Source: Porphyra umbilicalis
Lineage: Eukaryota > Rhodophyta > Bangiophyceae > Bangiales > Bangiaceae
Length of the DNA: 64,000 bases
NCBI GenBank assembly: GCA_002049455.2
Contig: KV919095.1
Location: forward strand, 1-64,000
Direction of reading: 5' to 3'
The notes below the pieces were generated by a model. The model was not told where the DNA came from. It saw nothing but the letters and a program-made list of their open reading frames with translations, and made no database searches. Both the position numbers and the translations under genes were made by a program. This document shows positions 13,106 through 64,000 of the stretch, in pieces. The number at the start of each line of letters is the position of its first letter. Position 1 is the first letter of the stretch.

Positions 13106-15398
13106 AGTGGGGGTTGAACGTAATGTCGACGCCGGCGGCGGTGAGGACGGGGGGGGGGAGCGTCGCCGCGTCATCCTAGGGGTGGCAATGCGCACGAGGG
13201 GGGAGAAAAAAACAAAAAAGAAAACAGAGAAAGAAGGGATAGAAGAGGTGTCCACGAGCGCAGCGGTGGCGACGCGCGCGGGGGGGGACGGCGGCACAGA
13301 GCGCGGGTGGGCAGCGCGTGCAGCGGCACGAGCAGAGCCGAGTCAGACGGGAGCAGAGCCGAGTCAGACGGGAGCCAAACCGCACCGCGCCAACAGGCTC
13401 CATGGTCAGACAGTGATGGGCGTCAAGATTGAGACTGCAGTCACCCCTCGTCCGCGTCTGGGCCGACGCGGTGGTCTCGGCGGGCGGCGCGCACGGCGCG
13501 CCCGTGCAAGCGACGCGGCCGGGTGGTGGGCAACCGTGCACCGTACCTGCCGCCACCCAAAGAGCGAAGCCACCCGCGACGTGGTAAACCCGAACGCGTC
13601 CATGGCCAGGACCCCAACGGACCGGGATGGGAGACGCCGTCGACGGGAGAGCGAGCTGCCAACGGCGCTCTCGCCCCGCTTGTGAAGGCGACACAAAGGC
13701 CCCGTGGGTGCGCGCGAGTGGTGGGTGCGGGCAAGGGCAGCTCGACTCGGGGTCGCCGTGCTCGAATCCCAGGATTGCAGGAGCAGAGCACATCCGGCGG
13801 CCGATACGTGACGACCTTGGGAGCCTGGTGCGGACCGAAAACTCGGCCTCTTGATCCTCGTAGTTGCCCGCCGGTGGACGGGCAACACAGGCGTCGTAGT
13901 GCTCTCGGTGAGGGCGGCTCTTGGATTCCCACGCTGGCCCGGACCAGCGGCCAATACCAGAACATTTGGCCAAGAAAGAGAACAAAGGGTATCATCAGAG
14001 CGGCTCGACACAACGCCCCGGACCAGAAATAGACAGGTTTTGACATGGACGAGTACGCGGCCCTATCATCTTTTCTTGTGCAGTGACAATGAAGAGCAAA
14101 GATTCCCTCCGCGACGGATCTGGTCGTCGTGCGTTGCAGAGGGAGATGTGCTGGTGAACCGGTTGACATGGAGAGGCCCTGTCCTTCTTCTCGAGCTTCA
14201 CGGTGTCAAGCGGGACTGACCATCAACCGCAAAGCAAGAGGCATGTTCGTTCAGAGATAAACGGCAACCACCGCGCCTTGCCCAGATAGTCTCTCCACCA
14301 AGAGACGGACAAAAACGACTCAAATAACCATCGACTGTACACACCCCAGCGGGTGCCACCCGACACAGCACCCGCCCGCTCCCCTCCGCTCTTCCCTCCG
14401 TACGACACACCCGATGCCTCGTCACCGCCACCGTCCACACCGGCACGGGCCCAAAGTTCTGCCTGGGCGTGTAAGAGCACAGCCAACAATGTCGCATTCC
14501 GCAAATATTGCATCCACGTGTCTAACGTGGCGCAACGTGGCAGCTCTATGCAGAAAACGGCACACGCAGCGATGTAGCTATGCGGAACCTCCACATAGAG
14601 TAGGTATTGACTTAAAGAAAGGTACTAATTCCAGTCCCATACCCATTTCTGGGGTTCGGAGGCTGTCGGGAATCTGAGGCCCTGATCCGCATAGAGGCCC
14701 TCTATGCGGACGCAGAGCGTTGATTTCGAAGCGTCCCGAACCAATTAACAGCGAATCGTAGCGCTGTCCGTGCATGCCTGTGGCCTCGGACGACCGCGAC
14801 GGCCACCACGTGTGGTCCATCTGATCCCGATTGATCGCACAGCTGGATTTCAATCTGCACTCACCTGTGGACCCACTGCTGGCGGGACGCCGCAGGCGCT
14901 AGGATCGCCCAATACGTAACCACCGCAGACGAACAGGGCACCAGATTTTCGGGCCGTGCCGAGCATCTCAGGCGGCGGGTGATACGTGCCTCGCGCGCCT
15001 TCTCACTCGGCTGTTGACACCGCCTCGCTTCAGCTCGCCAGACGAAACGTGGAGGTCCTTCCGTCCAGGCGGATGAGCCGTGGACGGGACTGGATTTCTC
15101 CCCCAGTGCCGGCCCTGACGAGCCCTGATCCTGGCCCACCCCGGGCAGCGGGCCCGATTTGACAGTGTACACTGTCACACGGCCCCACGCGGAGGAGGCA
15201 CCTGCTGGCGCGGTGCCGTGATATTTTCGACGGCCCACACGACACCCGTGATTTCCCCGGCGTGGCACCCGCCGCCGCGCTGCCCACGCACATGCCCTGC
15301 CGTCGTCGTCACGGCGCCCACCACCACCCACCGGTGTGCCCTCCGTCCTCGTCCCTCTTTTTTGCGGGTCTGCTGCCCGGCTCGACGCGAAAGGCAGC
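13106..15398. other. Intergenic, no supported gene
   Basis: Between the ABCG gene and the transposase I see overlapping open frames without recognisable domains. An exact 21-bp direct duplication (unit AGCAGAGCCGAGTCAGACGG plus G) lies at 13331-13372. The stretch 15180-15398 is pyrimidine-rich and probably is the leader of the transposase gene. Confidence 0.45.
14687..14709. repeat. Perfect 10-bp palindrome
   Basis: CCGCATAGAG and CTCTATGCGG flank a three-base spacer. A related CTATGCGGA occurs at about 14579. It lies 690 bp upstream of the transposase start and could be part of the element's terminal or subterminal region, but no matching copy was found beyond 20.3 kb. Confidence 0.7.
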
Positions 15399-16880
15399 AT
15401 GCTTCTTGACGGCCAGTCTGACGAGGACCTGGACCTGGCCGTCGTGCTCGGGGCCGCGGCTGGCCTTTCCTTGCGACGAGCGCTGCGCGTCGTGCGCGGG
15501 CGGGTGGACAAGCGGCCCATTGGTGGCTCCCGGCGCGGCCGGCGACCAAACCGCAACCGCGGTTTCGATGAGGGGGCGCACGCGATTTTGCGTGACTATT
15601 TTGGAGTTGGCGGGAAGCCGCCGGTCTACAGTGAGCTCGATTTCGAGAAGCGCTTCCGCATGCCGCGCGCCGTCTTCCAGCGGCTCTACGCGGCCGTGTG
15701 TAACGAGCCTTGGTGGAAGCGTTCCGTCAACGCTACCGGGCGTTTGCAGTCCCACTCCATCCAGAAGCTGGTAGCGGCGTTGCGCGTCCTGAGCTATGGC
15801 GAGGCCTATGACCGTCCCGACGAGTACTGCCGCCTGTCACGCTCCACCATTTGCGAGGCTACCCGGCGCCTGACCGACCTCATCGTCGAGAAGTGGGAGC
15901 CGACTTACCTACGCCGCCCTACCGAGGACGAGCTGAAGCACATCCTGGCCCGGAACGCGGCCCGTGGCATGCCGGGCTGCATTGGCGCCATCGACTGCAC
16001 GCATTGGCAGTGGATCAAGTGCCCCAAGGCCCTTGCCGGGCAGTACCACGACCGCAAAGGTAAGCGCTCGGTGGTTATTGAGAGCGTGTGTGATGAGGAC
16101 ACGTACATTTGGCACTTTTTTATTGGGGCGCCAGGGAGCTACAACGACAAGAACGTGCTGGCGTCGTCCCCCCTCATGCTGGACGTGAACGCCGGTTTGT
16201 GGCCGCCGCGGAACCTGTCCTACACACTAAACGGCCGGACCCGTCGCTTACTTTACTACACGGCCGATCAAGGATACCCCCGCTACCCGATTTTTGCCAT
16301 GCCTCACCCCGCCCCCGACACCCGCAAGCTGCTCGTGTACAACCGACTACAAGAAGCCGTCCGCAAGGACGCCGAGCGTCTCTACGCGGTGATGCCGTCA
16401 CGGTTCAACATTGTGCTGCGTCCGGCACGCTTTACGACGGTGGAGCGCATGATCAACACCGGCAAGACAGTGGCCATTCTGCACAACATGGCCATAGAGT
16501 GCACACGCGCCGGCTTCTTGGCGCACCGAAGAATGCAAGCGGCGCCTGGGGGACCTACGGATGAGATGGATCGACAAGCAGACGGCAATGCCTCTGGACG
16601 GGACGGCGCGCGCGACGAGGACGCAGGTGGCCACGGCTTCTTTGTCAATGACGGGCCGCGCGGCCCTGGCGTCTGGGGCCCCCCAGTGCCCGCTGATGAT
16701 CAGGGCCGCGACCCCAGCGACCACGACGGGCCCGAGCTTATTGCTGGCTCTTTGCGGTACACCGATGGCGCCGAGTGCGAGGCCAAGGACAAGGACGCCC
16801 ACTTTGACCTGATGCGCGACCTGTCTGAGCACGTGTGGAAGGACAGAGGCCGTTTTCTGTCGCCCTACGTCTGTGGGTAG
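15399..16880 (+). CDS. PIF/Harbinger (Pong-like) DDE transposase
   Basis: This 493-residue protein has the core of plant-type PIF/Harbinger transposases, which cut and paste elements with TAA/TTA target duplications. Visible motifs: an N-terminal helix-rich region with FRMPRAVFQRLY, then GCIGAIDCTHWQW (D199), SVVIESVCDEDTYIWHFFIGAPGSYND (D250), LLYYTADQGYPRYPIF (D290) and RKDAERLYAVMPSRFNIV (E326). D199, E326 and one or both of D250/D290 are the candidate catalytic acids; none is missing. The acidic C-terminal ~110 residues are low complexity. I chose the ATG at 15399 because the frame upstream offers only GTG. The gene is intact and faces convergently the Myb-like partner at 17.4-19.4 kb, the usual two-gene Harbinger arrangement. 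Length fits the family. Confidence 0.93.
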   Translation: MLLDGQSDEDLDLAVVLGAAAGLSLRRALRVVRGRVDKRPIGGSRRGRRPNRNRGFDEGAHAILRDYFGVGGKPPVYSELDFEKRFRMPRAVFQRLYAAVCNEPWWKRSVNATGRLQSHSIQKLVAALRVLSYGEAYDRPDEYCRLSRSTICEATRRLTDLIVEKWEPTYLRRPTEDELKHILARNAARGMPGCIGAIDCTHWQWIKCPKALAGQYHDRKGKRSVVIESVCDEDTYIWHFFIGAPGSYNDKNVLASSPLMLDVNAGLWPPRNLSYTLNGRTRRLLYYTADQGYPRYPIFAMPHPAPDTRKLLVYNRLQEAVRKDAERLYAVMPSRFNIVLRPARFTTVERMINTGKTVAILHNMAIECTRAGFLAHRRMQAAPGGPTDEMDRQADGNASGRDGARDEDAGGHGFFVNDGPRGPGVWGPPVPADDQGRDPSDHDGPELIAGSLRYTDGAECEAKDKDAHFDLMRDLSEHVWKDRGRFLSPYVCG

Positions 16881-17431: not shown

Positions 17432-19351
17432 CTATCCCTCAGCGTCGGTGGCGTGTGACTCAGGGGCGATGGTGCCGGCCGGGGTACGGCAGCGGCGAGT
17501 CGGCAAAGGTGGCCGTTTGCCACGCGCCGTGGCACGGCCGCGTCGCGAGCGGCCGTCCTGCTCCAAGTCATAGTCGTGGTCTGTGGCAGTGTTGTCGGCC
17601 ATGAACTCCTCGCTGTCGACACGATGCGCAGCTGCCGCCATCATCTCCGCGGCCTCCTCAGCGGCCGCCTCAACAGGTGTGGACGGTGTCACCTGAGAAG
17701 CCATGGGCGTAGAGCGCCGCTCACGTGCTGCGCGTCCGTCGCTGCCTGTGGTGAGCCCCTGGTCCGAGTTCTCGTCTTCGTCAGTCGTCGATGACGCGTT
17801 GGTGGCGCCGCGTCGCGACCGGGTTGGCAGAGGAGGCGGCGTCGACGAGGATGAAGAGGATACAACAGCACGAGCAGTGCGCACACGCTCACAGCGGCCA
17901 CCACGGCCGCGTCCACGACCACGGCCGTGTCCTCGGCCGCCTCGAGCGCCGCGGGCACCACCAAAGCCGCGGGCACCCGCTCTCGCGGCTGCTCGCTCAG
18001 CTTCCTCCTCAACCTCGTCCGTGTTGTAGTCGAGCTCGTCACGTGGCCGGCGGCGACGCCCGCGCGCTCCTTGGGCTTGGCCACGCGGCGCGCTCGGCAA
18101 GGCCACCAACAGGTCACCATCGTCCATCTCACGACCTTTCTGCGCGTCCTTATCCTTGTCCTCCGACTCCTGCAAGCGACGTCGCACCTCGTTGGCCCAC
18201 CACTTGCGTCATTCGCGTGAGTTGGATGCCTCAGGCGTTGACCAAAAGGCCAACGCCGTGCGTTGCGCAGCGGACGCGGCCAGCGACTCAAGGGCGGCCG
18301 TGTTGGCGGCCGCCTCCCGAATAAGATGCGCTTCCGCCCGAGACGTGGCCTTAGCGGCCTTGTTGCCCATAGGACGCTCTTGAAACAGGCGCTGACCGCG
18401 CGTGAACGTGGAGGACAGAGGGGCGTTGCCGTTGCCATCATCGTCGTCTGAGTCCCCCATAGCGCCAGTAGAAAACGGGTTTTCGCTCCCAGTCGTGCGC
18501 CGCCCGCGGGGCGACGCCGCCGTCGAGGGCGCCGCGCTCGCCAAAGCCATTAGCGTGGCACCACCGCTAAACTTGTCGGTGTCCTTGAGGATGCGCCAGT
18601 TGCTGAGAGGAGGGCACTTGAGCTTGGCCGCGACCGCCGCGTTGAGGCCATCGTAGGGGTTCAGGCCGTTGTACTTAGCCTTGGCCGCGTTGATGAGCTG
18701 CTCAGCTGTCGGGTTGCCCGTCATCTTGAGGTTGACCACCGCCAGATAGCATTCTTTAAAGCGATTAATAGCCGGGAACATGTTGTATCGGAGCTCCTTC
18801 ATGATGGCCGCCGTCGAGCGGGCACGCCGCCGCTCCACTTGGTTCATGTCAGCGGGCAGGCGTCGGCGGAAGCGGTCGGCCACGTCCTCGTCAAAGCGCT
18901 CCAGGCTCTGGTCCACCCCCACCTCAGCGTTAAGCGTTGCTTCCTTGTAGACGGAGGCAAGCACGTTGCGCTCCGCTTCAACCCAGGACACGCCGCGCGT
19001 GCCGCGGCCGCCGGCAGTTGAAAAGATGCTGGCCCGTCGGCTGCGCTCCTCGATGAGGCCGCGCGACGCGGCGGCCTCGGCGCGGAGTTGTAGGACCTCC
19101 GCGCGCAACTGGTCCTCCTCCGTCTGCAGGGGCTGCTGCTCCAAGTGCCTGTCCAGTCCCCCGGAAAGCATGCTTCCGTCGGCCCCAACCGGCGCAGCAC
19201 GTCGCCCAACTACTAGGGAATCACCCTGCCCCGTCGGCAAGTTGAGCGCCGTGCCGGGGACGTCGTCGTGGTTTGCTGGTTCGGTGTTGACAGAGCCGTC
19301 TTTGGTAGCAAAAGTGGCCATGTCTTGGCCATCTGCGTTGAAGCTGGCCAT
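17432..19351 (-). pseudogene. Harbinger Myb/trihelix-like partner protein with one in-frame TGA
   Basis: Harbinger elements encode a second, Myb/SANT-like protein that binds DNA and brings the transposase to the nucleus. The segment GVSWVEAERNVLASVYKEAT, followed by FKECYLAVVNLKMTG, QLINAAKAKYNGLNPYDG and LKCPPLSNWRILKDTDKF, has the order of that family (trihelix plus NAM-associated tail). The first ATG is at 19351; the frame is open a further 19 codons to a GTG at 19408. A TGA at 18209-18211 interrupts it after residue 380; the same frame continues RKWWANEVRRRLQESEDK to 17432, with a glycine/arginine-rich (GRGRGRGRG) and acidic tail. The continuation argues for a single nonsense change in a ~640-residue protein rather than two genes. 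It is convergent with the transposase. Confidence 0.8.
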
Positions 19352-19446
19352 GTCTTGGCCAAAAGGTCTTGGGCGCTTGTTGAGCACCGACACGGCCAAG
19401 GTAGCCACAATGCCGACGGCCTTGATGGGCCGGTGCTCCGGGGCGG

Positions 19447-20310
19447 CTAGAACCGTTTAGGCAACGGCAGTCGGCCCAACGCCTTGGGTGCCCACCAGAC
19501 CGGCGCCGCGGGGAGGTTGGTGTTCACCCAGTACTCCTCGCGCTTGCCCTCAGCGTCCGGCAAAGCTAGGCGGCGCTCCCACCGCGGAGGCCTTGTGAGC
19601 GCCTCCTCCCGCTCGGCCTCGCGCCGCTGGGCCAGCACCCGCTGGTGTTCCTCCCACGTCACGGTGACCTCGACACCGTGCTCGTCGGGGGGGAGCTTGA
19701 TGAGGCGCGGCGACGCCCACGGGCAGGGGCACCGCGGCGGGCACGTTGGGTGCTCGTCCCCGACAGTGACGGCGCACCTACACACGTAGCACATACGACG
19801 ATGCGCCCGCCGCTCAGCAGTCCGACTCCAAAACGCGCAGTCACCTTGTGGGATCCACTCCCAGCCCCAGCCCGGCTGTGCGGGGGGCCGGACCGCCCAA
19901 GGGCACGGACAATCACGAGGGCACATAGCGATGTTACTGCTCACCTTCTGCGACCGCTTACACTGCGTGCAGATGCTGCGACGGCCACGCTGCAACTCGG
20001 CCTTGGAGATAGTAGGGGCCCTCGGGCCATACCTCGGGCGAGGTGTGTACGCGGGAGCGTCGCCGCGAGCTCGAGTGCGCGACGTCCGCGGCAGAGCCGC
20101 AGTGTCATCAGCTTCGGGCATGACCGCCGCCGAGGCAGGTCCCGCACCACCTCCGGCAGGCCCTGAGTGGGCAGCGGTGTCCGCACGTCGTGGGCTGTCA
20201 GGCCTCTCAGCAGCAGCGCTCGACGGAATCGGCGGGGGCGGCGTCGCCACGCGCACGCGTGGTGGCGTCGGAGGGGGCGTCGTACGGAACGGCGGGGCGC
20301 CGCTAGCCAT
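19447..20310 (-). CDS. Unrecognised protein with two CxxC-x12-CxxxCPCPW zinc-like motifs
   Basis: The ATG at 20310 opens a 287-residue frame with a proline-rich N-terminus (FRTTPPPTPPRVRVATPP). The middle holds two copies of one motif, C-x2-C-x12-C-x3-C-P-C-P-W: one begins CTQCKRSQK, the other CYVCRCAVT, each closing with CPCPW. They are about 40 residues apart and probably bind a metal ion each. The C-terminal part is charged (EEHQRVLAQRREAEREEAL) and ends LPLPKRF. The stop lies 95 nt before the Myb-like ATG on the same strand, close enough to suggest a shared transcript, a missed intron joining the two, or an extra gene of the Harbinger element. I do not recognise the family; function unknown. 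Confidence 0.6.
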   Translation of the reverse strand: MASGAPPFRTTPPPTPPRVRVATPPPPIPSSAAAERPDSPRRADTAAHSGPAGGGAGPASAAVMPEADDTAALPRTSRTRARGDAPAYTPRPRYGPRAPTISKAELQRGRRSICTQCKRSQKVSSNIAMCPRDCPCPWAVRPPAQPGWGWEWIPQGDCAFWSRTAERRAHRRMCYVCRCAVTVGDEHPTCPPRCPCPWASPRLIKLPPDEHGVEVTVTWEEHQRVLAQRREAEREEALTRPPRWERRLALPDAEGKREEYWVNTNLPAAPVWWAPKALGRLPLPKRF

Positions 20311-23855: not shown

Positions 23856-24221
23856 CTCCGGCTGCCGCAAGGAAGTGCGAGCCCAAGGGCCACGCGGCCT
23901 GTCGAGGCCGAACAGATGCAGGCAGGCGGCTCACGGGCAGGCGGACCGACGGCGGCAGAGAGCTGAGGAATGGGAGGTTCCGGCCTCGTAGACGGCGACG
24001 ACGTCAAGCCGGAGTAGGTGCACGAGCAACCTGCGGGCGGCGGGTGAGGTGTAGGCAAGGGAGCAGTGGGTGGTGCGTGGCGGGTGTGCGTGAAAGAGCA
24101 GTGGTGGAAGCACGACATTTCCGCGACGGTGAGCACCCTATGCTGTGATCTGGGCACAGAAGAACCCTTCCGACCACCCGCCCATCCGCTCCACACGTGC
24201 TCTGCAATCCCCCCGCCACCC

Positions 24222-25165
24222 NNNNNNNNNNNNNNNNNNNNNNNNNNNNNNNNNNNNNNNNNNNNNNNNNNNNNNNNNNNNNNNNNNNNNNNNNNNNNNN
24301 NNNNNNNNNNNNNNNNNNNNNNNNNNNNNNNNNNNNNNNNNNNNNNNNNNNNNNNNNNNNNNNNNNNNNNNNNNNNNNNNNNNNNNNNNNNNNNNNNNNN
24401 NNNNNNNNNNNNNNNNNNNNNNNNNNNNNNNNNNNNNNNNNNNNNNNNNNNNNNNNNNNNNNNNNNNNNNNNNNNNNNNNNNNNNNNNNNNNNNNNNNNN
24501 NNNNNNNNNNNNNNNNNNNNNNNNNNNNNNNNNNNNNNNNNNNNNNNNNNNNNNNNNNNNNNNNNNNNNNNNNNNNNNNNNNNNNNNNNNNNNNNNNNNN
24601 NNNNNNNNNNNNNNNNNNNNNNNNNNNNNNNNNNNNNNNNNNNNNNNNNNNNNNNNNNNNNNNNNNNNNNNNNNNNNNNNNNNNNNNNNNNNNNNNNNNN
24701 NNNNNNNNNNNNNNNNNNNNNNNNNNNNNNNNNNNNNNNNNNNNNNNNNNNNNNNNNNNNNNNNNNNNNNNNNNNNNNNNNNNNNNNNNNNNNNNNNNNN
24801 NNNNNNNNNNNNNNNNNNNNNNNNNNNNNNNNNNNNNNNNNNNNNNNNNNNNNNNNNNNNNNNNNNNNNNNNNNNNNNNNNNNNNNNNNNNNNNNNNNNN
24901 NNNNNNNNNNNNNNNNNNNNNNNNNNNNNNNNNNNNNNNNNNNNNNNNNNNNNNNNNNNNNNNNNNNNNNNNNNNNNNNNNNNNNNNNNNNNNNNNNNNN
25001 NNNNNNNNNNNNNNNNNNNNNNNNNNNNNNNNNNNNNNNNNNNNNNNNNNNNNNNNNNNNNNNNNNNNNNNNNNNNNNNNNNNNNNNNNNNNNNNNNNNN
25101 NNNNNNNNNNNNNNNNNNNNNNNNNNNNNNNNNNNNNNNNNNNNNNNNNNNNNNNNNNNNNNNNN
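24222..25165. other. Assembly gap (944 N)
   Basis: Unsequenced bases. The gap truncates the minus-strand gene that starts at 26438. Reading frames drawn across it have no support. Confidence 1.
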
Positions 25166-26438
25166 GTGCCTTCGCGGCCTCCTCGGGCGCCATACTTACG
25201 CGCCAAGCGGGTCCCGCGGCTGCCGCGCGGCTCTCGGCCTCAAAACGAGATAGCAGTGCAGCGGCGGCCGACTCCCGAGTCGCCGCCACTCGCGCAGCGG
25301 CGAGCTCCACTGCAACAGCCGCGGCGCCGTCAGCGTCGGCCCGCTTCTGGATCGCAACCCGCTCGAGGTCCGCCGCGTATTCCTCGAAAGCAGTCTCCCA
25401 ATCAATCGTCCATACGTCGGCGACGTATTGCGCGCAGTGCACCGCCTTCGCCGCAGCGGGGACCATGTCGGCCTTGCCCGAGGCCGTTTCCGCCGGCCTC
25501 GTCGAGGCCAGCACGGCCGCGGCCCGCGCATCTACGGCCGTGCTTGCCTCGGCGAGGCCGGCAGCCGCACAGCCATCAACAGTGGCCGCTGACAGTGACG
25601 ACGCCGACGCCACAACTGCGACAAAACGCGAAGTCACCACCGTGTCGGTCATGGAGACGACGGCAGCCGCCGAGTACGCCGCGTCGTCGTCGTCTTCGGA
25701 GCTGCCGTCCTCCTCCTCCGCGTTGGGGGATGGAACATACTCGGAGCCTGAAGAGTATGAAAACCTCTTACTCGTCTCTGAGTCGCCACTCTCGGCGTAG
25801 CATACAACACCCGTCAATCCTGACATGGTGCTGTCCCCGCTGTCCTGCGACGCGCTCCTCTCGTCGGTGGCATCCGAATCGTGAGAGGGACAGTAGCACG
25901 ACCCCGATGCGCTGCTGCTGCTGTACTCCGATGACAAAGCGGAGGGCGGTGAAGACAGCGACAAGTACCGCTCGTTCATGGCGGCCGCCTCCGGTTCCCC
26001 GCTGGCGGCCGCCATCTCCTCCTCCTTGGCGGCCGCCTCTGGTTTCCCGGTGGCGGCCGCCATCTCCTCCCCCTTGGCGGCCGCCTCTTGTTCCCCGGTG
26101 GCGGCCGCCATCTCCTCCTCCTTGGCTACCACGCCCGCCTCCTTCTTGGCGAGCGCAGCAGCGCCAGCGACGCGCCCGACAACGGCCGCTCGGCGAAGCT
26201 GGAGCACGTGCTTCTGCGCAGCGTCGTCTCCGGCCTCAATGGCCATAGCTCGATCCTTGGCGCGCTCCCGATCCCGCTTCTGCTCTGCGGCAGCGTGCCG
26301 CGCCGCTGCTGAAGCGGCCGCAGCGGCTGCACGAGCCCGCGTCGCGCACGCGCACGCCTCGACAATGCGCTCCAGCTGCTCCACGGAGATAGGAACGGCG
26401 CCGCCACGACCGGCGCCTAGGTTGGCGGCGCCCTCCAT
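25166..26438 (-). CDS. Unrecognised Ala-rich coiled-coil protein, 3' end lost in gap
   Basis: The ATG at 26438 opens at least 424 codons before the gap. The N-terminus (ISVEQLERIVEACACATRAR) leads into an Ala/Arg/Glu-rich segment predicted to be helical, then three 16-residue repeats of the type KEEEMAAATGEQEAAA, then a Ser/Asp/Glu-rich acidic low-complexity region of ~110 residues (SSEDDDDAAYS), and finally an Ala-rich helical stretch with VWTIDWETAFEEYAADLERV. I recognise no domain. The charge pattern and repeats suggest a coding frame rather than chance, unlike the plus frames here. The C-terminus is unknown. Its relation to the gene at 22.4-23.9 kb, same strand beyond the gap, is open. 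Confidence 0.6.
25982..26127. repeat. 48-bp tandem repeat, three copies, in frame
   Basis: Three 48-bp units, each containing GGCGGCCGCCATCTCCTCC, differ at a few positions. Because 48 is a multiple of three they add 16 codons each to the minus-strand gene, typical of repeat expansion within a coding sequence. Confidence 0.9.
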
Positions 26439-55863: not shown

Positions 55864-56238
55864 TCTACCGGCTCACACACGCTCTCGACAAGGAAGCACA
55901 CTCTAACTCGCGCAAGCGTACACAGGTACACCGTCGTCGCTACGAACACAAAAGGGGGAAACCCTAGAAAGGTCGGGTGGCGTCTCCGGCGCCGATGTCC
56001 CGCTGTTTATATACGCTGCCCGGCTCGGCCGATGGCGGGAGCCACAGAAAAAGAAAACGGTCGACGCCGCGCTGTACGCGTCCCGCGGCCGAGCGCGCGG
56101 CGTACCAGCTGAAACGGACGACCCCCCAGCTCGCTGCCGCTGGCGCACGCGAGACGGCCTTGCCCGTACGCACCCGGCGGCCGAGCGCGCGACGCGTCAG
56201 CTGAATCGGGCGACCCCCCGACTCGCTGCCGCCGCCGC
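54434..56238. repeat. Y block, copy 2
   Basis: Near-identical to Y1. It differs by scattered substitutions (for example CACAGG preceded by GTTGATCA rather than GTTGAGCA) and stops at 56238, within the 92-bp duplication, where single-copy DNA begins. Confidence 0.9.
56006..56014 (-). promoter_or_regulatory. TATA box of the Y2 gene
   Basis: The identical GTATATAAA on minus lies 143 bases before the ATG at 55863, as in Y1. Confidence 0.55.
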
Positions 56239-57083
56239 ACAAAGGAACCCACCCGATCCGCCGGCACGGCAACGTCACCGGCTCTTACGTGCTCCATTGG
56301 CCGCCGATCCAGGCCATATGCGACTGTCGGCACGGCACGTCCCGTGCCGATCACACCTAGCCTGGGTCCCGGCCAATCAGAGAGCGAGATTCCGGGCCCC
56401 GCTGATGGGGCTTTCCGGGGGGGTAGGGGGCCTCTTTTCACCGGCCGTTATTACAAATATTTGGCCCCTGGTGGTGCAATTTTCGGCCTGCGTGAGCGCC
56501 CTCTACTGCACTCTGGCGGGGGGGGGCTTCGCGCTGTCAGCCGCCGAATGATTGGATGAGAGTGCTCAGTCAGCACATGCCGCACCAATGAGCATCGTTC
56601 ATAAATTGTGATAGGCGACAGAACATCGGCACGGCCCACACCTGCAATGACCCCGCATCGGTCCACATGGACCTCGGTTCGAGGGTGTCAGGCAGCGCGC
56701 GCGCGCGCGCCGGCACCCCCTCCACTCCGACGTGACACCGGCCCTCGTCCACCAGATCGCGGAGCGACGTCCGCTCCGCCACGCCCGACCCCGACTGACT
56801 ACCCCGGCGCCAACGCCCACTGCCACTCATACCCGTCATTGTTCAACGAGTACCACGCCTGTCCCATGCATGTATTAAACTGTCGAGCTTACCCCACCGC
56901 ACTATCCCCCCATGCTGCGCTACCTCTGACACCCCCCACCTCCACCGTCTCCGCCACTCGCACCATCTCCGCCACCCCGACCATCTCCACCACCCCCCCC
57001 ATCTCCCCCACCCCCATCGTCGCCCCCACCCCTACCGTCTCTCCCCGCTCTTCTTGTTCGCGTGTGCCTCACCTGAGAGCACG
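56239..57083 (+). promoter_or_regulatory. Upstream region and pyrimidine-rich leader of the SWIM-Ulp1 gene
   Basis: Single-copy DNA of moderate GC after the satellite. A GC dinucleotide run lies at 56696-56711. TATTAAA at ~56873 is a TATA-like sequence 210 bases before the ATG. From 56930 to 57050 an imperfect CACCATCTCCGCCACC-type repeat makes a C/T-rich leader, as before other genes here. No other gene seen. Confidence 0.4.
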
Positions 57084-60000
57084 ATGGAGAGGGACGCCGA
57101 GGGCCGACCGCTCCGGCGCCTCCTCATGTGTGGCTTTCTTAACAGCGTACCGGCCATCGAGGACAACGCTGAAGACGCGTACCTCCCTCTAGGAGACTCG
57201 TCGCAGTCGCTGCTTGCCCAAGCGCGGAGCGCCTACACCGACTACATTGTCAACCACGGTGCGGGAGACGCGTCGGTTGGCGCAACCCCCGGGGCCACGC
57301 ACGACGACGGCTACGACGACGATGGCGACGGGCGGCCTGCCAGTGCGCAAGAAGCCAGCCACGCTGCGCCGCGACCTTCTGACGGCCAAGGTCTGGGAGC
57401 GGCAGCGACGCCGGCTGCGCTCTCCAAATCGCAGAAAGCCAACCGCCGCCGCCGACTCAAGGCGGCTGCATCGACTGCCGCTTTGAGCACCCGCCCCAAG
57501 AAGCCGCGCCAGCCCACCAAGATGGAGCGGGCGTACTCCATGGAGGAGCTGGTCACGGTCTTCCTCTCGGAGCTCCGCGTGGCCGTCGGACTCGACGCGC
57601 GTATGGGCGGCGACGAAGAACTTGAGGGCGGGTGCGTCCACGGCGCAAACGTCATTGGCTTTGTAGAGGCATTCGACCCCATCTGTGTCTGGACGGCGCT
57701 GCTCAAGGGCAACGTTGCCGCCTTCTGCTCCTGCGGCGGTGTCATGGGCAGCGGCTCGGCGGCCACGGTGGACAACGCGCTCGAGCACGTCGAGATACAG
57801 TGGAAGCGCAAGAATAGCTCCACTTGTCGCCACGCGGCGGCGCTGCTGGCGGCATACCGCATGATGTCGGCTGAGCTGGGCCTGCACACGCCTGAGGCGT
57901 TGATTTGCGCGGTGCCGTCCTTGCGCGGCCCCGACATGACGGCCGACGGCAAGCCCTACGAGACTGTCGTCCACGACGTGGGCAAGGTCGGCAGGCGGAT
58001 AAACATCCCTCTGTATGCCATTTGCTACGGCAACATCTAGTCACCCGCTATCGTCCGACAGGGTGGCAACCGATACTAGTTGGCCACGTGCTGCCTCCTG
58101 TCCTGCCAGACCCAGCCTTGGGGGTGCCCGCATGCCAAGGCAGTCAACAAGTTCAACAGAGTCGAGGCGTCGTCGGCGTCGGAGGCAGCGGCAGCTGCTC
58201 AAGAGTCGTTACGATTTGGACCCAGCGGTGTGCTGAACGAGATGGGCGAACCGCCGCCCGCCGAGCCCGTGGCCGCCGCCCCCGATAGTCTGCCCGTGCC
58301 GCCGCCACCTCCACGCCCCCGTCGTGCACGCAATATGTTCCCGTGCACGCAGGAGGTGGCTTTGTGCGACGTTTACTGCTAGTTTGTGGACGCGGCACGT
58401 GCAGCCAACAACATCTACCGGTACGACTCGAGGCTTCACGTGGAGGAGAAGTGCATCGTGTGCCAAGAGCCGCGGGGAGACTCGCTGACGTCTCATAACA
58501 TTGCTCTTCTCTTCAGCGTGAGGGGACGCATGCAGATCTTAGTCGGCCAGTGGGCATGTGTCAATGGGCATGACGTCTTGTACGACGGGGCGGGCGACGG
58601 GCTGTTTGCTGCAACCCAGGAGATAGTTTACGCGCGCATCTTCTTGGACCTGGTGCTGGAGCTGTGCGTCATTGCGCGGTCGACCATGGCGGCGGCATGC
58701 CAGTACCTGACGGGTCTGCTGAGGAACACGGCCGCCTATGGAGAGGGCGAGCCTGGTCAAGCCCGGCAGCTGCTGTCTGACGCCACAGGCGAATTCTCGG
58801 ACACGCTGGTTGTGCCGGCCGCGGCCTTCAAGTGCCACCACTGTGGCCGGGAGGAGGCGGCCGGCGGGCCGTTCAAGTGCATTGTTTGTGATGGGCAGAT
58901 GCTCTCGGTGCTCCAAGCGCACGTCAAGGAGATGATTCGGCCGAGCGGCAACGCGCCGCGGGTCGACTTTTCCATCGTTTTCGCGTGTGCGATACGGACG
59001 TCATCAATGAGGGGGCTGGTGCGCCGCCGCGTCCGGGCCAAGCCGGACGAGGGAGTCGAGCTGACCATTGTTGAATCGCGCGTGTGGCCCCAATTTGTGG
59101 CTGCCGCAGACGAGACGCCTCCCGTAGCCCCACCACTGCCCACGGCCGATGAGGTGATGCAGCGCGCGCCGATCGACGACGAGTGGGCGCTCAGGTGGTC
59201 TGCCGCCCAAGTCGTCAAGCACTTTTTTGCGGTGCACGGCCGCGGCGATGCTGGTGCTCCAGCTGTGCAAGCCGTGCCGGCCGCCGCGCTCGTTCCCCCC
59301 CCGCAAGCTGCCGCCAACAAAGACACGGCCGCTTCCGCGGACGAGTACGATGACAGGGACCTGGTGAGCGGCCAAGACACCAGTGGCAGCGATGACGATG
59401 ACAGCGGCACCAGCAACGAAGAGACCGACCAAGCCGATGCGGACGCCGGCAGTGGAGATTCGGTCGGCGACGTCACCTACGACGGCGGCAGCGGGATGGA
59501 GCTCGAGGGCGCCGCCGCGGAAGTCGAGGAGACCGGTGTGGCGGACATCAGCCCGAGTGCCACGGTGTTACCCTCCAACGGGGCCTCTGCGCTTAACGTT
59601 ACTGTGCCTCCTGCGCGGCGCTCCCCATCGTCGTCTTCGTCTGCTTCGGGGTCGGACTCTTCAGCGTCCTCTTCATCTCCCCCTCCAACAAGACGCCGTA
59701 GAGGTACCGCAGGTGCCGCTTGCGCAAGGAGACCTATCCGGCGGTCGAGGCGTCGGTCAGCCACCAGTGTTGGAAGTGACGCGTGGCGGCTATAGAAGGG
59801 GGAGATTGAGAAGGTGCCGGATGGGGGAGACGCGAGCGAGGACCCAGTCGCAGTCAATCGGGCGGATGCACTGTCACCGCTGACCCTGCGCGCCATCAAG
59901 GCGACGGCTGACGCCATTATCGCTCCGTCCGACGGCGTCGCCACTGTGCTGATCAAGATCGGTCCCATCCCGCTCCAGCTAGAGGACTTCCTGCTCACGC

Positions 60001-60560
60001 TGCCGCAGCAGTGGTTTAACGACGAGCTCGTCAACGCGTACGTCGAGCTGCTGCGCGTCCGCCAGCTCAAGTTTGCGTCGTCCGTACGTCCCAAGCCACA
60101 TTTCATCTTTTTTAACTCGTTCTTCTTCGACAAGCTCACCGAGAAAGGCCGTTTCAACTACGAGGCGGTGCGGCGTTGGACGAGAAAAGAGGTCGTTCTC
60201 AAGGCACGCAAGATCGTCATCCCTGTCAATGTTACCGATGCGCACTGGTTCTTGGCGGTGGTGATCCCGGCTGTGGGGCGCGTCGAGCTCTACGACTCCA
60301 TCGGCCGGGCGCAAGAGCACATGGGCCAGAACCTTGCACGGTGGGCGAAGAAGGAGGCCTCCGTGCACGGCTTGCCCAACAGAGTTTGGAGCGTTGTAAC
60401 GATGCCTTGCCGTGTACAAGAGAACAATGACGATTGCGGCGTGTTCACGTGCCGGAACATGGAGCTCCTCTCCAAGGGCGAGGCGGTCGTTGGTTGGGCA
60501 GGGAGCTCTTCGTACCATCGCCGTCGGATAGCAGCTGAGTTGCTGTCCGGTTCTCTGTAA
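57084..60560 (+). CDS. SWIM / KDZ-type cysteine cluster / Ulp1 protease fusion with four in-frame TAG codons
   Basis: From ATG 57084 to TAA 60560 one frame runs 1158 codons, broken only by TAG at 58038, 58077, 58380 and 59793. Residues 1-160 are disordered with a basic SKSQKANRRRRLK segment. A SWIM zinc finger follows (C215, C217, C248, H250; FCSCGG ... STCRHAAAL). After 58386 come EKCIVCQEPRGD, GQWACVNGHDVLYDGAGDG and KCHHCGREE...KCIVCDG, like the CxC clusters accompanying KDZ transposases and HMGXB3-like proteins (recalled, not searched). A ~150-residue acidic Ser/Asp linker precedes a C48 (Ulp1/SENP) protease: WFNDELVNAYVELL, DAHWFLAVV (His, 60243), LYDSIG (Asp, 60294), Q (60417) and NDDCGVFTC (Cys, 60435), all catalytic residues present. 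Neither later segment has its own ATG before its domain, so they belong to one product. No transposase core is visible. Confidence 0.8.
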
Positions 60561-62125
60561 AACGTTTGCATGCTGCCTTTCTTTGTCCTCGTGCCGTCGC
60601 CTTGTCCAGCATGAACACGACTCTATTCTCCTTATATGTGCTCCCCACTGCAACGGCCGCCAGCCGGTTGGGCGCCATCAAGATCTCTTTGACAATAGCA
60701 TCGATCCTGAAGTCGACGGGTGCAGCAGTTGGTCGCTCAGCAATGATGAGAAAGCAATAGCAGAACACTCCTCCCCCTATCAGCTGGTCCACTCGGACTG
60801 TACGAGCTTGTCAAAGTCGGCGCCATCGGCCACCTCACCTCCGCAGGCGGCCACCTCCCCGTTGGCGGCGGTCGACTCGGCGTGGACGGCCGCGGTGGCA
60901 GTAGCCGCCTAGTTTGTCGCCACCACCGCCGCATCATCACCACCGCCTCCGCCGGGTCGGTCGACCGGACGTCAACAGGCGCTTCAGAGGTGACGAACTC
61001 GTTTCCGTTGGCAGCCTCCGTTGTTTGGTGGCCACCGTCCCATTGGCGTCGGTTGGCTCGGCGTGGACGGCGGCGGTGGCGGGTGTCGCCTCGTCCGTCG
61101 TTGCGACCGGCGCCCCGTCGCATCCGCCTCCGCCGCATCGGCCGAATGCACGTCGGTGGCCGCGACAGAGGCGATCAGCGTGTCGTCGTTGGTCGCCTCC
61201 GTCTTTCTGGTAGCCGCCGCCCCGTCGGCGTCGGTAGGCTCCTCGTAGACAGCGGCAGTGGCGGGTGCCGCATTGTCCGTCGCCACCACCGCCGCCCCGT
61301 TGGATGCCCGAACGTCGGCGGGCGAGACAGACACGAGCAATAGGCAGTCGTTGTACACTTAGACCGTCGACGAGGGCACCGCCTCGTCCGTGACCCTTGC
61401 GCCGCCCCCAGGGCCACTCCCTCGTTGGCACCCCTTGACTTGACGCTGACCGCTGCAGCTATGGTGACCACTGCATCCGCGGCCGTCCCTGCTTCCACGT
61501 CTGCCGGCTCCGCGTCGGTGCGCAAGGCGGACGAAGCGGGCGTGTGGCTTCGGCCGCCTCACCCGACTCGACGACCACGGCCGCGCTGGAGCCAGTTGGT
61601 GTGGCCCAGGCGGCGGCGGCAGCGGTCGCCAACACGTCCGGCGCCCGTGTACCGCCACTTCCGCAAACTGCGCGTCAATCAGAGCCGCAGACATGACGAG
61701 CCACTGGACGTTGGCCGCCTGGGCCACCGGTGCGAGACCGGCCACGAAATTGCCGCCAACGGCCGGGGCGGGCGGTCGTGGCCAGGTCCGTGTCGGCCAC
61801 GAGCCTCGCGTCGGCCTGCCGCACTTTGGAGTGTGCGGGACACGAAAGCGGCACGATGCTGCAGACCGCAACCCTCTTGTTGGCGGCCTCCATCATGTCG
61901 ATGGCACTCGGCTTGATGCCGATGGCGGCGGCGGTGGCAGCTTCCAAGTCCATAGCCACCACCGCCGTCGCGACAGGCGACCAAGAGTGGGAGGTCGCGG
62001 CAGTCACGACCAGGAGCTCACCCTTGGCGGTCTCCCCCGTGTTGGGCGCCATTCGGCAAGCCGCCACTAGTGTAGGTTGCTCCTGCCAGCTAGTCGCTCT
62101 GCACTTGTGGAGTCTCTTCACGGGG
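60561..62125 (-). pseudogene. Decayed Ala/Val/Thr-rich coding sequence with ~180-190-bp repeats
   Basis: On minus, segments in changing frames look coding: 61675-62121 (GETAKGELLVVTAATSHSW, MDLEAATAAAIGIKPSAIDM), then NFVAGLAPVAQAANVQWLVM in another frame at ~61650-61750, then ADVRASNGAAVVATDNAAPATAAVYEEP-like modules at 60870-61360. The modules repeat about three times with a 180-190-bp period on the DNA (GGCTCGGCGTGGACGGCGGCGG and variants). The family is not recognised. Frameshifts between segments mark it as a remnant. Confidence 0.4.
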
Positions 62126-63104
62126 ATCGACGCGATACGGGATAGGATCCCATGATCACACGCCCCTTGTCCAGAATGCCCGCCATTTTTCAGAGTAATC
62201 GCCGAATGTCAGTCAGACATGCAGACTTAGTTGTTGATTTTCTCAGCAATCTAAGTCGAAAGCAGACCACTCCAGTTCCTCAAAGCACTCGTAATTCATT
62301 GAGGACAGTGAGATCTCCTGGTGAGCTCACGTGATTCGTCCTTTTCGCCGTCGCAACCGCCACCATATGCATAGAAGGACTGTCCAGAGCAGCCATAGCG
62401 TGGGGTGGAGAGGACCCGGATCACTGTCGTCAGACAGGTGCCCTGCGGACCGCTGATGCTGCGAGGCCGTGTCCTTTGGCAAAACTGTGCCAGTGGCGTC
62501 CTTTCGCAACTGGAAGCTTGTCAGTGCGTCCGGTGGTCCGATCTGGAGACCCCTCCCGTAACCCCGATCGCACAGCTCCAGTGTCGGACAACGGCGCGAT
62601 CCTGAAGCGTTTCCGCAGACGCTCTCTGTAAGCGATTGCGCTCCCTTGGTGCTTGGATCATGCTTGCACCGGGCCCCCGATCAGTCCGCAGCCGGTGCGT
62701 CTGTCTCAGAGGCTTCTCTCGCTGTCACGGTCTTCACGCTTCTGGCACCTGTCCAGGGCGCTTCGGTCCATTCCCCCGAGTTGTGCATGCCGGGCGGGGT
62801 CCCAGCGGGCCCCTATCCACGGGCATGGGATCGGCTCTCTCGCGCACCGGTGTGACTCGAGACGTGTGTTCCTGGCGTCAACCCACCGGTGGCGTGCTCT
62901 GGCGTCTGGTTTGCTGCCTCTACACCCCCCTCCCCCGCCTCTGCTTGGAGGTCTTGCTGTCCACCCGCTTCGCATGGATTGTGGCGGCAACTGGCATGAC
63001 GATGGTCTGGCGTTCTGTCAGTGGCCATGTGCCGTAGCAGTGCGCTCCCTTCCGCCCCCATAAGCACCTAGCCCTCTTCTGCCGACGCGTAGGTCGCTTC
63101 GGGA
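62126..63104. other. Intergenic, no supported gene
   Basis: Moderate GC, short overlapping frames without domains or repeats. I see nothing to annotate. Confidence 0.5.
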
Positions 63105-63671
63105 ATGAGGGAGGGGGGCGACGGCGGCCTGCAGCTGGAAGTCGTGTCGGCGGCGTTGTGGACGCCTGTAGCGGCTACCGCCACCGCCTCCATCGGCACC
63201 ACGGCGACCGACGTCAACGAGACGAGAGGTGTCAACACCGGAGAGGCGTCCAACGGCATCCTTTCGGTCGCCTTTGCCGCGGCGGTCGACGGCAGCCTGT
63301 CGGTCGCCTCCGCCAGGGCGTTCGACGCCCCGCCTGCCAGCTTGTTGGCGGCGTTGTGGACCGCAGCAGCGGCGACGGCCACTGCCACCGTCGACACCAC
63401 GTTGACTGACGCCGACGGGGCGACTGCCGTCAACACCGGCGAGGCGTCCTACTGCAGCCTGCCAGTCGCCTCTGCCACGGCGCTCGACGCGCAGTCGGTC
63501 TGCGAGTCGGCGGGCTTTAAGACGGCCCCAGCGGCGACCGCCACCGCCGCCGTGGGCACCCCGCCAACCGACGACGACGAGGCAAGAGACGTCAAGCCAG
63601 GAGACGCGGAGGACGGCACCCTGCTCGCCGCCTCTGCCTCTCCGGCCGGTGTCGCGCCTGCCGACGTGTAG
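63105..63671. repeat. Imperfect tandem repeats (171-198 bp), open on both strands
   Basis: Repeats start GCGGCGTTGTGGA at 63150, 63348 and 63672, with a diverged unit at ~63519. A plus frame with ATG at 63105 (188 residues, modules of AALWTAAAATATATVDTT type) and a minus frame at 63068-63436 (TVAVAVAAAAVHNAANK modules) are both open. The minus modules resemble those of the decayed sequence at 60.9-61.4 kb, which favours that strand, but I cannot decide. Confidence 0.45.
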
Positions 63672-63712
63672 GCGGCGTTGTGGACGGCCGTAGCGTGCTC
63701 GTCGAGTGTGTG

Positions 63713-64000
63713 ATGGCGGAGCCCGTAGCTCTCAATGCTGCGGGTGGTGACGGCGGCACGGTGCCGGCATCGAGCGAATTCATTTTCTCTACCGTCGCGT
63801 CGGTATTCCCGCCCACTGACGATGCCGATCTAGAGCTGGACCTGTGGCGCAAGGTGCGCGTCTTCGTGTCGGCGTTTTGGGCGGAGCCGGTGCTCAACAT
63901 GTTCAACGGATGCGATATGATCGACGTGGAGGTCTTGGCGCGCGCCCTTATCGCTGGTGTGCCCAGTGAGCTTTGGCTCGACTACCTCGATTGCGTCCAG
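63713..64000 (+). CDS. Start of an unrecognised protein, runs off the window
   Basis: The ATG at 63713 opens 96 codons with no stop to the window end. It begins MAEPVALNAAGGDGG and then shows non-repetitive, globular-looking sequence (LELDLWRKVRVFVSAFWAE, MIDVEVLARALIAGVPSELW). Codon use and composition differ from the repeats just upstream. Only the N-terminus is present, so no family call is possible. Confidence 0.5.
   Translation, partial: MAEPVALNAAGGDGGTVPASSEFIFSTVASVFPPTDDADLELDLWRKVRVFVSAFWAEPVLNMFNGCDMIDVEVLARALIAGVPSELWLDYLDCVQ

Follow-up and report, generated by a model that had tools for sequence, protein, structure and literature searches.

Closest described systems

The closest described systems to the locus analysed here are KDZ (Kyakuja-Dileera-Zisupton) transposases with a C-terminal Ulp1 domain, Zisupton DNA transposons and the SENP/Ulp1 SUMO proteases. 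In KDZ transposases, SWIM zinc fingers are frequent. KDZ-Ulp1 proteins of the genome under study carry a cysteine cluster and an Ulp1 domain that are homologous to those of the family described here and are arranged in the same order, but they also possess the KDZ core (PF18758), which this family lacks. Zisupton resembles our element in having terminal inverted repeats (TIRs) and in a distant relation to KDZ, but it creates 8-bp target-site duplications (TSDs) according to PMC12730594, whereas the TSDs of our element are 7 bp long and no transposase core was found in its protein family. The likeness to SENP/Ulp1 proteases lies in the C-terminal domain; unlike in those proteases, the Ulp1 domain of the family is joined to SWIM-like and cysteine-cluster parts within a mobile element.

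A SWIM, cysteine-cluster and Ulp1 gene with four in-frame TAG codons

The window, that is, the whole stretch of 64,000 nucleotides that was analysed (C335:1-64000), contains one reading phase of 1158 codons that ends in TAA and holds four internal stops, all TAG (codons 319, 332, 433 and 904 in the translation of 57084-60560), as a sequence-only reading of this DNA had described. Each of the remaining five frames of the same segment contains 13-41 stops, and the open frame is therefore not a product of chance. The gene and its recognisable parts are as follows.

57084..60560, + strand: SWIM, cysteine-cluster and Ulp1 gene, most probably a decayed copy, whose 1158 codons are interrupted by four TAG and closed by TAA
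57726..57833, + strand: CxC...CxH motif of SWIM type (codons 215-250), for which the Pfam SWIM match (E = 0.021) does not reach the cut-off
58524..59228, + strand: cysteine-cluster domain (codons about 481-715), which by hhalign also occurs in KDZ-Ulp1 proteins of this genome
60009..60479, + strand: Ulp1 (Peptidase_C48) domain; Pfam E = 5.8 × 10−23, catalytic motifs in place, fold as in homologue P0002

The ATG at 57084 is very likely the true start, judging from sequence comparisons. Between the window gene and its closest relative, dN/dS is 0.31 downstream of this ATG and 1.32 in the 95 open codons upstream of it, the latter value being derived from few changes (5 synonymous and 18 nonsynonymous); selection on the gene thus seems to begin at this codon, and the equivalent Met is also the first residue of P0002 (1158 aa), a homologue from the database. 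The His, Asp, Gln and Cys motifs of Ulp1, presumably catalytic, are present, and the columns of the SWIM motif are conserved in at least 90% of the rows of a family alignment of 24 database homologues. The earlier statement that the SWIM and C48 residues are intact thus holds for both motif sets, although the support of Pfam extends to C48 and falls short of the cut-off for SWIM; the intact copy L009 gave no Pfam SWIM match. It had further been stated that the second and third domains have no ATG of their own. The later segments do hold Met codons, but these come late, the first Met of the Ulp1 segment being its residue 176. No tRNA was found in a scan of the window in the bacterial-code setting, no Rfam family reached the gathering threshold in the window, and tblastn of the Ulp1 part in phages returned no match.

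A family without the KDZ core

Among the 24 homologues scanned with Pfam, Peptidase_C48 was found in 21 and CxC4 (PF18717), a KDZ-associated cysteine cluster, in 11 at E ≤ 0.01, whereas the KDZ core (PF18758) was found in none. Neither the core nor any CxC profile matched the pieces of the window gene or L009. CxC4 exceeds the cut-off at C56, in the gene of L025, whereas a separate scan of L025 gave 24.0 bits, under the cut-off. Comparison of the family profile with five KDZ-Ulp1 proteins by hhalign matched the cysteine cluster over 197 columns (probability 99.2, E = 1.3 × 10−19) and the Ulp1 domain (99.8%, E = 3.2 × 10−29) and yielded no counterpart of the KDZ core (0.2%). Because the family matches KDZ-Ulp1 proteins in the cysteine cluster and Ulp1 but not in the core, the missing core is a trait of the family; to judge from these profiles, its absence is old, under constraint and not peculiar to the broken window copy. 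The lack of a visible transposase core reported in the sequence-only reading is thus borne out. The KDZ-type link it proposed was upheld in the shared cysteine cluster, but the profile that scores is CxC4 rather than the suggested CxC5 or CxC6, and it does so only in some homologues.

Across the genome, we identified 28 matches to the KDZ core, of which 19 were above the cut-off; by hand comparison, at least 13 of the 28 have contig and open-frame length in common with an Ulp1 match. One such protein, L053 (C162), combines in a single frame an Ulp1 match (E = 3.9 × 10−26) and a KDZ match (E = 2.9 × 10−5, 24.3 bits, below the cut-off of 26.6). In the AlphaFold model of P0002 (mean pLDDT 53.6, pTM 0.34), low-confidence helices occupy residues about 521-714. 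A hidden transposase fold was not seen in a Foldseek search with this model, in which the best 50 of 53 matches (E ≤ 0.001) were all Ulp1-type or other cysteine proteases, with SENP1 and SENP2 at the top; the model being weak, the absence of the core rests mainly on the profiles. The titles and abstract openings of the literature searched, PMC8226300 and PMC12730594 among it, do not describe a coreless KDZ-Ulp1 protein.

Residues at the four TAG sites in genomic relatives

In the window's own genome (83.8 Mb, 665 contigs), we identified 85 matches to the Ulp1 part of the window gene. Ten matches to light-harvesting proteins (PF00504) suggest that this is the genome of a photosynthetic eukaryote, most likely an alga. 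From the Ulp1 matches, 20 loci were extracted, 10 of which align closely with the window gene at the DNA level; nine were aligned with it, and the tenth (L016) was omitted as partial. L009 (C49) is 94.0% identical to the window gene over 3477 bp, with no gaps and no internal stop, and L009-L012 all have the same length and frame as the window gene and carry sense codons at the four sites. The residues of the nine aligned relatives are as follows.

58038..58040, + strand: in-frame TAG where 9 of 9 encode Trp, a residue that hardly varies in the family alignment
58077..58079, + strand: in-frame TAG; Lys in 9 of 9
58380..58382, + strand: in-frame TAG where 9 of 9 encode Gln or Lys, the closest relative having Gln
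59793..59795, + strand: in-frame TAG; Glu in 8 of 9, Gln in 1 of 9

TAG occurs at none of these sites in any of the nine relatives, and the Trp of the 58038 site is present in at least 90% of rows among the 24 database homologues, which share as little as 37% identity with the first row. Sense codons in other copies were the outcome that the sequence-only reading had itself associated with a decayed copy. L009 is the only one of the nine without internal stops: L010-L014 have one or two each, at positions that differ from those of the window gene, and L015, L017 and L018 have internal stops plus frameshifts. L018, at a contig end of C33, shows 36 indels (33 of them single-base) against the window alignment, whereas L012 (C457), with which it shares its left flank, shows none; the indels of L018 are perhaps assembly errors or the mark of an unpolished contig end.

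On the strength of these comparisons, 57084-60560 is almost certainly a recently inactivated copy of a transposon gene, and its four TAGs are the result of ordinary decay. Given an intact sister copy and relatives whose residues differ from one of the four sites to the next, neither a new genetic code nor readthrough is needed. That all four internal stops are TAG while the gene ends in TAA is what would be expected if TAG were decoded as an amino acid in the genome or the element, through reassignment or a suppressor tRNA. However, no single reassigned meaning can fit residues that differ from site to site, and as a genome-wide rule the idea is refuted by host genes that end in TAG. Three HSP70 genes were read to their ends: two finish with TAG, in one case directly behind KEEL (presumably an ER-retention-like end), and one with TAA; all nine HSP70 matches are stop-free. 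TAG and TAA each terminate two of 11 long family ORFs, and TGA the other seven; these ORFs were chosen for being open, which accounts for the absence of inner TAG, and L020, L022 and L027 seem to have no start. We consider reassignment, whether genome-wide or confined to the element, to be extremely improbable. A TAG bias was also considered as an element-wide signal and rejected, as the internal stops of the Ulp1 family comprise 11 TAG, 15 TGA and 16 TAA in a hand count of the 24 of 85 genomic matches that have internal stops, a tally that gapped or shifted stretches may inflate.

An intron can end in TAG, and the stops could in principle be spliced out with introns that carry TAG at the 3' end or close to it. 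However, L009-L012 are colinear with the window gene and have sense codons at the four sites, and in database proteins the first three sites are spanned by residues that are conserved or align; splicing deserves practically no weight as an explanation. Decay of CAG to TAG at methylated CHG sites agrees with the Gln of the closest relative at 58380, but the three changes that could be polarised began as Trp, Lys and Glu codons. This route fails at three of the four sites, which are not CAG in the closest relative, and its probability as the common cause is negligible.

Selection and decay

Comparison of dN/dS between copies of different age shows that young copies drift neutrally, whereas the old lineage has been under selection; for the window copy alone, neutral drift is not separable. 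In the three young pairs among L011, L012 and L013 (dS 0.013-0.015), dN/dS is 0.98-1.10; in the L015-L017 pair of middle age (dS 0.060), it is 0.79; and in the remaining, deeper 32 of the 36 pairs, it is 0.22-0.38. The source lineage of the family has remained under purifying selection for a long time; individual copies decay through point mutation after insertion.

The nonsense changes in the three young copies were four TAG, one TGA and one TAA. From codon usage, the share of TAG among nonsense changes is predicted to be 60-64% (with flat or observed mutation spectra), and the probability that four of four are TAG is 0.13-0.16. That all four stops of the window gene are TAG is attributable to codon usage with a GC3 of about 78%, which provides many one-step routes to TAG. 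Between the window and the C49 copy, 0.006-0.037 indels per substitution were observed in the rest of the element; because indels are this rare, zero or one would be expected among a few dozen neutral changes, and the missing frameshifts are unremarkable. An all-TAG set of stops can thus result from plain decay, given TAG-favouring, GC-rich codon usage and rare indels, and this removes the claim of recoding.

On the window branch, three nonsense changes could be polarised along with 62 synonymous and 56 nonsynonymous ones; the fourth stop is not polarisable because the outgroups vary. Past the first TAG there were 49 synonymous and 41 nonsynonymous changes, compared to 13 and 15 ahead of it. 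Constraint is thus not weaker beyond the first TAG. The same would be expected under amber readthrough, if some of the four TAGs were passed and the window copy thereby gained a longer protein. However, readthrough would have to be efficient at each of four serial sites, the nine relatives do not share the TAGs, and most of the window branch, under the model described below, would predate the stops, so that it mostly records the time before them; the chance of readthrough appears very slight.

Ordinary decay also has evidence to answer. Amino-acid change on the window branch is restrained overall, which counts against simple decay, as does a mild excess of nonsense changes: a mixture model that divides the branch into selected and neutral time and takes the 4 stops as given yields about 24-33 neutral substitutions, with 1.8-2.5 nonsense changes expected vs. 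4 seen (Poisson P about 0.11-0.24, hand calculation). In the window copy, four changes at unlike codons have most probably left the four TAG stops, and the copy would yield no functional full-length protein. Overall, the observation made in the sequence-only reading was confirmed, and its interpretation was supported in part: the missing core stands, the KDZ link stands partly, and recoding, CHG decay and introns do not. The TAGs are ordinary decay; what deserves a second look is the KDZ relative that lacks a core and sits in two fused TIR units.

A 19.4-kb composite element

The gene is part of a 19.4-kb composite (C335:56238-75645) in which two TIR units abut, the right end of the composite being taken from the repeat in common with C49.

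56238..64000: part of unit A within the window; the whole unit, C335:56238-66175, is 9.94 kb long
C335:66176-75645: unit B, 9.47 kb, outside the window
56238..56298, + strand: left terminal inverted repeat of the composite
56231..56237, + strand: left copy of the 7-bp TSD, in a GCC-rich stretch; the right copy, C335:75646-75652, is outside the window

The inverted ends of units A and B abut at 66175/66176, and the four unit ends have about 61 bp in common. The window element and nine copies begin at one base (56238) with differing flanks, except that L012 and L018 represent one site and the flanks of L015 and L017 are similar. The A/B junction was found at ten genomic places (≤ 3 mismatches; nine besides the window), plus a one-base-shorter form at C33, and is present for 9 of the 11 close gene copies (the window and ten others), the exceptions being the two on C67. 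Around the whole 19.4 kb, 7-bp TSDs flank the five insertions for which both outer ends were read, four of them perfect and one matching at 6 of 7 positions. Seven more distant coreless loci with a placeable left border begin C(A/G)CA(A/C)AGGA, two of them after one extra C. At C275:19934-28405, a B-type end and an A-type end are separated by 8.5 kb, possibly a recombinant form.

Unit B contains an ORF of 1646 codons, Ala/Pro-rich, on the - strand outside the window (C335:70443-75380); its C49 version has 1994 codons, the first part of which lies beyond the end of the element. In codons 446-745, dN/dS is 0.31-0.33, compared to 0.44-1.02 in the other segments of the ORF, and part of the unit B frame therefore looks coding. 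A Pfam scan of five complete or partial ORFs from the C49 composite, the gene itself excepted, gave no match at E ≤ 1; for the unit B frame, 1866 residues of the C49 version were scanned, again with no match.

As to how the composite moves, it is possible, though we regard it as doubtful, that selection maintains a KDZ-derived protein without a core as the principal gene in elements that travel as a 19.4-kb fused TIR pair, with a transposase acting in trans. The SWIM and cysteine-cluster parts would bind the element ends, Ulp1 would strip SUMO from proteins that are bound or lie nearby, and a core-bearing transposase, perhaps supplied by KDZ-Ulp1 elements of the same genome, would cut in trans; the coreless protein would thus serve its element through DNA binding plus SUMO-protease activity. 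Contigs with the TIR core (40 places) do not overlap with those that carry the 28 KDZ-core matches. Common ends were looked for as a sign of movement in trans, without success: the left borders of KDZ-Ulp1 elements, placed tentatively in three of four extracted, begin differently (GTGAAG(G/T)AATCGGGCGC, compared to CACAAAGGAACCC in the window element). The TIR being absent from KDZ-core contigs and the KDZ left borders differing, the evidence argues against a simple trans version. Because a KDZ-related lineage persists without a transposase core, it becomes possible to test what its SUMO protease and cysteine cluster do and whether elements divide the labour between them.

Other features of the window

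An AT-rich island at 24001-26000 has a G+C content of 0.35, compared to 0.61-0.78 in the other 2-kb blocks of the window, and contains long overlapping open frames on both strands, two of which were scanned and gave no Pfam match. From about 30967 to at least 46662, the window holds arrays of about 1.2-kb repeats that contain 72-bp tandem repeats. A PIF/Harbinger-like transposase gene (Plant_tran, E = 6.3 × 10−50) lies at 15252-16877 on the + strand, and near it, at 18212-19456 on the - strand, is a NAM-associated protein match (E = 4.8 × 10−4, under the cut-off).
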